Below, one piece after another: positions 58,146 to 58,742 of a stretch of 64,000 bases of DNA. The notes under the pieces were generated by a model. The model was not told the origin of the DNA and made no database searches. It worked only from the letters and a program-made list of their open reading frames with translations. The first letter of the stretch is position 1; each line of letters begins with the position of its first letter. The DNA is from Acidimicrobiia bacterium (GTDB lineage Bacteria > Actinomycetota > Acidimicrobiia > Acidimicrobiales > Poriferisodalaceae): the NCBI GenBank assembly GCA_022821985.1, contig JAJECP010000003.1, positions 62,001 to 126,000 of the forward strand. Reading direction: 5' to 3'. The position numbers and the translations under genes were made by a program.

Positions 58146-58742
58146 ATGGCGAATGAGCACGGCTACTTGCCAAAGGTGACCGAGCTGGACGACAAGCAGC
58201 AACGCCGCTTGGACACGTGGTACGCGAAGGCCTACACCGACGACAACCTGTTCCGGACGCTGGCTGCGGATGAGACCACGATGGACATGTTCTTGGGCTG
58301 GGTCGGCGCCGTGTATGGCGGCACGCCTGAGGAGGACCCCGGAGCGCTTGATCGTCACATGCTCGAGATGTGTCGCATCCGCATGGCGAACCGCAACGAG
58401 TGCTTCCACTGAAGCCTGGTCAAGAGCGCATCGTTGGTGCGCACCGGGCTGACCGACGAGGTCGTGGCCAAGCTGGACGACTACGAGAACTCCGATCTCG
58501 ACGACGGCTGGAAAGCTGCGCTCGCCCTAGCCGACTGGCTCTCCGGCAATGAGCACTCGGGGAAGATCCTGCCCGAGCACTACGAGCGGCTGCAGCGACA
58601 CTTCGACGAGCAGCAGATCCTGCGGCTCGGAGCTCTGCTCGCCGTCTGCAGCGGCTGGCATCGGATGATCGAAGCCTTCGGCATCCGGCCCGACCACTAC
58701 CAAGCCGGCCAATCTGCACCGTGGGCCGCGGCAGCGGGTTGA
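58146..58742 (+). CDS. AhpD/carboxymuconolactone-decarboxylase-like protein, candidate selenoprotein (CxxU)
   Basis: Read through one in-frame TGA (58410-58412), this is a 198-residue helical protein of the AhpD/CMD family, which includes thiol peroxidases. Upstream of the TGA the family core reads LEMCRIRMANRNE, then C86-F-H; the TGA is residue 89 and the frame continues SLVKSASLVRTGLTDEVVAKL and a normal C-terminal half. The TGA therefore takes the place of the second Cys of the CxxC redox motif, which in AhpD is the peroxidatic residue. A SECIS-like hairpin starts right after it. ATG 58146 has a GAGGGG Shine-Dalgarno. The selA/selB/selC/selD genes are outside the window, so a pseudogene cannot be fully excluded. 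Confidence 0.8.
58413..58450 (+). promoter_or_regulatory. Candidate bacterial SECIS element
   Basis: The lower stem is AGCCTGGT (58413-58420) with ACCGGGCT (58443-58450): eight pairs, one a G-U. On the 5' side five bases (CAAGA) bulge. The upper stem is GCGCA (58426-58430) with TGCGC (58438-58442), and the apical loop TCGTTGG (58431-58437) contains a GU. The loop lies 18 bases after the TGA, as expected for bacterial SECIS, and the stem lies in the coding region. Confidence 0.75.

Follow-up and report, generated by a model that had tools for sequence, protein, structure and literature searches.

AhpD-like selenoproteins with a CxxU motif have been known since 2005, when they were reported from the Sargasso Sea (PMC1088965). 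The Global Ocean Sampling yielded 299 and 70 AhpD-like selenoprotein genes of two types (PMC2398784), and a 2026 review includes several AhpD-like selenoprotein models (PMC13188914). In the AhpD of M. tuberculosis, a proton relay is formed by Glu118, Cys130, His132, Cys133 and His137, the last of which is invariant in the AhpD structures compared (PMC3141380).

Here we describe a gene of this already catalogued kind from marine actinobacteria, located in a 64-kb window (the whole stretch of DNA analysed, contig C37, positions 62001-126000) of a 3.3-Mb metagenome-assembled genome (MAG) that is 89.9% complete; its nearest relatives are MAGs labelled Acidimicrobiia. A sequence-only reading of the window had proposed a selenoprotein at this locus and had remarked that AhpD-like selenoproteins occur in other bacteria, as the catalogues cited above confirm. 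New are the clade, its lineage, the lack of coverage by curated models, the covariation of the selenocysteine insertion sequence (SECIS) across subfamilies, and the mycothiol context. A literature search joining Acidimicrobiia with selenoproteins found no paper.

The predicted protein resembles the marine CxxU AhpD-like selenoproteins (COG2128/TIGR01926 type, 'AhpD-like 1') in having selenocysteine (Sec) at the second CxxC position and a SECIS after the UGA, but unlike them it scores under the TIGR01926 cut-off and belongs to a separate all-Sec CxHU clade. It shares the fold region and the Sec position with NF053654 and NF041238, the best-matching curated selenoprotein models, although it is not a member as those models are defined. 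With M. tuberculosis AhpD it has in common the Glu-x11-Cys-x-His-Cys/Sec arrangement (E74, C86, H88, U89), whereas it differs in its chain layout and in having Sec for Cys133 and Lys93 for His137; the neighbouring genes examined include no ahpC.

Gene structure and read-through frame

The gene occupies positions 58146-58742 of the forward strand, starting with an ATG at 58146 that is preceded, after 4 nt, by a likely ribosome-binding site (AGGGGG, 58136-58141), and ending with a TGA stop at 58740-58742. Read through, it would encode 198 amino acids with Sec at position 89. The frame read from the window sequence contains one internal TGA, at 58410-58412, which is codon 89 and falls exactly on the second position of the CxxC site (C86-F-H-U89), as the sequence-only reading had stated. 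The other half of the redox pair, C86, is encoded by TGC at 58401-58403. E74 (58365-58367), 12 residues before the first Cys and invariant in our 28-sequence alignment, is the counterpart of Glu118 of M. tuberculosis AhpD, and H88 (58407-58409), invariant in the clade, is the counterpart of His132. A very GC-rich hairpin (CGCGCGCCGGCGCGCG) lies just past the stop codon at 58743-58775; it lacks an obvious T run and may mark the transcript end.

Without read-through the locus is listed as two open reading frames (57999-58412 and 58434-58742), in line with the expectation that it is easily misannotated as two short genes. Since the protein scores under every curated family model examined, an automatic pipeline will probably break the gene up in this way. 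A TTG start at 58434, just past the UGA, would fit a plain stop that separates an 88-residue protein from a second small protein, but such a cut would interrupt both the active-site motif and the AhpD fold, and homology is unbroken across the codon. We consider this explanation, together with its variant in which general suppression inserts another amino acid, very improbable. TGA is also the terminal stop of the same gene and of most orthologues, which argues against genome-wide recoding, and a recoded genome was rejected on this ground.

Conservation of the UGA codon

Twelve orthologues drawn from MAGs that were assembled separately (L049-L060, 64-98% identity) have TGA at the position of codon 89, as do those of three more distant genomes (G227, G338 and G277, loci L020-L022, 40-53% identity), and none of these 15 orthologues has any other internal stop. 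The TGA is thus present in 16/16 members of the clade (40-98% identity). Among distant homologues within the class, the aligned codon reads TGA or TGC/TGT, with no case of TAA, TAG or a frameshift, which is the pattern that the sequence-only reading had proposed to look for; two of these homologues (L026, L029) have lost both motif residues (GAT...TTT/TTC). The first Cys of the motif is present in all 28 aligned rows. In-frame UGA is therefore aligned with Cys of homologues and kept across orthologues.

A nonsense mutation in a Cys-type gene, or a sequencing error that resequencing would correct to TGC/TGT, could account for a frame interrupted by a stop codon in this one window. However, 15 other genomes share the identical TGA, at identities as low as about 40%, purifying selection continues downstream of it (dN/dS stays below 1 both before and after the codon wherever it could be measured), and a SECIS hairpin and full Sec machinery accompany it. 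The agreement of independent assemblies on TGA refutes a pseudogene or sequencing error, which we regard as virtually untenable.

In a protein tree of 28 sequences, the window's clade is composed entirely of Sec forms (10/10, support 99/98), and the superfamily tree forces at least three Sec/Cys changes. Many Acidimicrobiia genomes encode several AhpD-like paralogues (L023-L048), with Sec and Cys forms occurring together in, for example, G249, G353 and G374. Among 395 genomes of the class, selA accompanies the TGA form in 36/37 genomes, a count in which codon-level locations apply to genomes with loci and not to every TGA counted, versus 20/30 Cys-only genomes (Fisher p = 9e-4); the lone TGA-form genome lacking selA is 68% complete. 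When 396 genomes of the phylum were searched with an alignment, no other close member emerged outside the class, and the few weak matches were free of internal stops. So far, the all-Sec CxHU clade has been seen only in Acidimicrobiia.

A SECIS hairpin with covariation across subfamilies

A hairpin immediately follows the UGA; the 52 bases starting at this codon are predicted to fold with a free energy of -23.1 kcal/mol (z = -2.5 versus dinucleotide shuffles). The apical stem-loop of the candidate SECIS spans 58426-58442 (+) and consists of a seven-pair stem, GCGCAUC/GGUGCGC, closed by a GUU loop at 58433-58435 that begins after 20 nt from the UGA. Bacterial SECIS rules specify a 3-9 nt loop, an upper stem of 4-16 bp, a G in the first two loop positions, a distance of 16-37 nt from the UGA and a minimum free energy of at most -7.5 (PMC13188914); here the loop is 3 nt with G first, the stem 7 bp, the distance 20 nt and the energy -22.3 to -23.1 kcal/mol. 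The whole hairpin extends over 58413-58450 (+) and includes a lower stem (AGCCUGGU/ACCGGGCU) kept in the nearest relatives only. As the whole fold fails in several orthologues, its conservation was dropped from the argument and only the apical stem-loop was retained.

All close orthologues have exactly the apical sequence GCGCAUC-GUU-GGUGCGC, and so do L020 and L021, whose protein identity is about 50%. After correction for amino-acid type, synonymous change reaches its gene-wide minimum at codons 89-100 (50 observed versus 199 expected, ratio 0.25) and is zero at codons 95-99. A second stretch of low synonymous variation (observed/expected 0.39) lies upstream of the UGA at 58218-58253 (codons 25-36). 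Other AhpD-like subfamilies display the same architecture with different stems (CCGTCTC/GAGACGG, CCGCTTC/GAAGCGG, CCGTCCA/TGGACGG) linked by compensating base changes, and across the subfamilies GGC, GGG or GUU loops lie at an equal distance from the UGA. All seven pairs are formed in the fixed register by 18/22 Sec genes from several subfamilies versus 0/12 Cys genes, the 18 not being independent since subfamily sequences are related (the 22 Sec genes comprise 16 distinct stretches). Sliding the partner strand by 1-3 bases leaves no gene with a seven-pair stem. The common register does not hold for the remaining four Sec genes, among them L022, the deepest member of the clade. Fold z-scores likewise separate Sec (-1.33) from Cys genes (+0.04; p = 1.7e-4).

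The pattern of TGA, 13 nt, a 7-bp stem and a G-loop occurs once on the forward strand of the window, at 58410, with an expectation of 0.05 per strand. On the reverse strand it is mimicked at 51490-51530 by tandem palindromic AGCCGTTCCGGCTGA-like units about 30 bp apart, repeats that also encode a recurring 'QPFRLSD' in a forward-strand open reading frame. An Rfam scan of the 64-kb window gave no match.

Selenocysteine machinery

The four genes that the sequence-only reading had named as a check, selA, selB, selC and selD, were all located by family searches of the same MAG, the complement expected of a bacterial selenoprotein producer. The tRNA-Sec gene (selC, C16:28028) scores 66.3 bits (gathering score 47) and has a UCA anticodon (TCA by ARAGORN); the other top tRNA-Sec matches that were inspected are ordinary tRNA-Ser and tRNA-Gly genes. 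On the same contig, selA (C16:40357-41529, 383 bits) adjoins selB (from C16:41586 onward, 274 bits), and selD lies at C10:4396 (355 bits), all three above their cut-offs. The encoded SelD is itself a Sec form, an in-frame TGA supplying the U of its GAGU active-site motif, and its gene is situated about 1.7 kb from a mycothione-reductase-like gene (C10:4396-8522; L018, L065).

This machinery supports the selenoprotein reading, as do other features read from sequence, namely the conserved UGA and conserved residues, the predicted fold and the SECIS hairpin. We consider it highly probable that the gene is functional and encodes a selenoprotein with a Cys/Sec redox site.

Family membership and predicted fold

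The protein falls short of the Pfam CMD family (PF02627, 17 bits versus a gathering cut-off of 23). Its nearest NCBIfam models are those of AhpD/YciW-related (seleno)proteins and TIGR01926, and all of their scores are far under the cut-offs: 28.5 bits versus 81.8 for TIGR01926 (peroxidase-related enzyme), 34.5 versus 310 for NF053654 ('YciW-related (seleno)protein') and 25.8 versus 175 for NF041238 ('AhpD_rel_CFYUT (seleno)protein'). An AlphaFold (AF2) model built from the 28-sequence alignment (pLDDT 88) is all-helical and reproduces the AhpD-like fold of the CMD superfamily with its two-helix CxxC motif. Foldseek matched this predicted structure with a probability of 1.00 to 2prr, 3c1l, 6k40 and 2o4d; its best PDB matches are the AhpD-type proteins 2prr, 3c1l, 2pfx, 6k40 and PA0269 together with the debrominase Bmp8, and a profile search agrees.

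The five-residue relay of M. tuberculosis AhpD is incomplete, with E74, C86, H88 and U89 present but Lys93 (Arg in other clade members) at the position of the invariant His137, and peroxidase activity is therefore uncertain. The assignment as a selenoprotein with a predicted AhpD-like fold stands, whereas that as an AhpD peroxidase fails on this one examined feature. Hence, where the sequence-only reading spoke of a selenoprotein peroxidase or thiol oxidoreductase, the selenoprotein part is supported, and the peroxidase part would be an extrapolation from the family.

The lysine at this position would also fit if the same selenoprotein acted as a thiol-disulfide adaptor, as AhpD does for AhpC, or as a mycothiol-linked disulfide reductase instead of a peroxidase. 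AhpD has been described as the adaptor that completes the AhpC/AhpD system, but PA0269, an AhpD-like CxxC relative, is itself weakly active as a direct peroxidase (PMC3141380). An adaptor or reductase role would be in keeping with the Rv2466c-like/DsbA gene that G227 and G338 carry immediately downstream; in the window's own lineage, however, no fixed redox partner lies beside the gene. On balance, we treat this as a credible but tentative second choice.

Bmp8 (6ohi, 6ohj) shares a CxxC site with the window's protein and ranks among the solved structures closest to it in both sequence and fold (TM about 0.7), which raises the analogy of a reductive dehalogenase employing Sec as thyroid deiodinase does. 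However, Bmp8 has Cys, not Sec, identity to it is only about 16-18% over the fold, and no halogenation or bromopyrrole genes were identified among the neighbours examined. A dehalogenase thus seems improbable.

Genomic neighbourhood and mycothiol context

Downstream of the gene, an acyl-CoA thioesterase (4HBT_3, 58806-59657, +) is conserved in 11/12 near orthologues and is a possible operon partner. The divergent zinc alcohol dehydrogenase on the other side (56875-57966, -), which is near NDMA-/mycothiol-dependent types, accompanies some orthologues only; no copy turned up next to L050 or L055-L057, and the gene was rejected as an obligatory partner.

Immediately 3' of the orthologue in G227 and G338, and in the same orientation, lies a gene of the Rv2466c family, which comprises mycothiol-dependent nitroreductases; in G227 the two genes share a stop-start overlap. 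In the window's own genome the Rv2466c-like gene is not adjacent to the AhpD-like gene; an apparent orthologue, with the MCPWAYQTS motif in common, is located at C34:3296. The same genome encodes another family member (PF22234) at C30:81275-81934 (L066/L077), in which TGA replaces the first Cys of CPWC to give UPWC. Nine of the 12 best class-wide Rv2466c-family matches, own genome included, have UPWC (loci including L079-L081, L083-L086 and L088), and the other three CPFC or CPWC. A literature search joining Rv2466c with selenoproteins found no paper, and one on mycothiol, Actinobacteria and selenoproteins found none concerning such a protein, by title and abstract.

The sequence-only reading took the host to be a mycothiol producer. 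Judging from its genes, this is likely, with the reservation that both the MshC-like gene (426 bits versus a NCBIfam cut-off of 485) and the mycothione-reductase-like gene (584.5 versus 635.65) score under their cut-offs.

Proposed function and implications

In the chemistry of CxxU proteins and AhpD, the second-position residue attacks and the first Cys resolves. For Sec insertion in the cell, the substrate used and the reductant recycling the enzyme, we infer the following course. Sec-tRNA would be brought to codon 89 by SelB attached to the hairpin immediately 3' of the UGA. The product would be an all-helical AhpD-like protein in which the Cys86/Sec89 pair lies on a helix with Glu74 and His88 alongside. 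Following the established chemistry, Sec89 would most likely be the attacking residue, either oxidised by peroxide or undergoing exchange with a disulfide, and Cys86 would resolve it to a selenyl-sulfide. This bond could then be reduced by the mycothiol system or a DsbA/Rv2466c-like partner, a mycothiol-linked reductant being suggested by the Rv2466c-family gene directly 3' in G227 and G338. Our best guess is a mycothiol-coupled selenyl-sulfide oxidoreductase or peroxidase; taken alone, its role as a peroxidase or its link to mycothiol is close to an even call.

A broader proposal, which we offer as speculative and rather unlikely, is that Acidimicrobiia have a mycothiol-coupled selenoprotein redox system in which Sec-AhpD (CxHU) cooperates with Rv2466c-type proteins, including a Sec-containing UPWC form; its substrate might be something other than a peroxide, for example a halogenated or nitro compound. 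There are few descriptions of selenium use in actinobacteria, yet selA is common in this class (256/395 sampled genomes). The fixed SECIS geometry (UGA, 13 nt, 7-bp stem, G-first 3-nt loop) provides a sharp handle for the remaining selenoproteins of the class, and the Rv2466c link ties selenium to mycothiol chemistry in a testable form.
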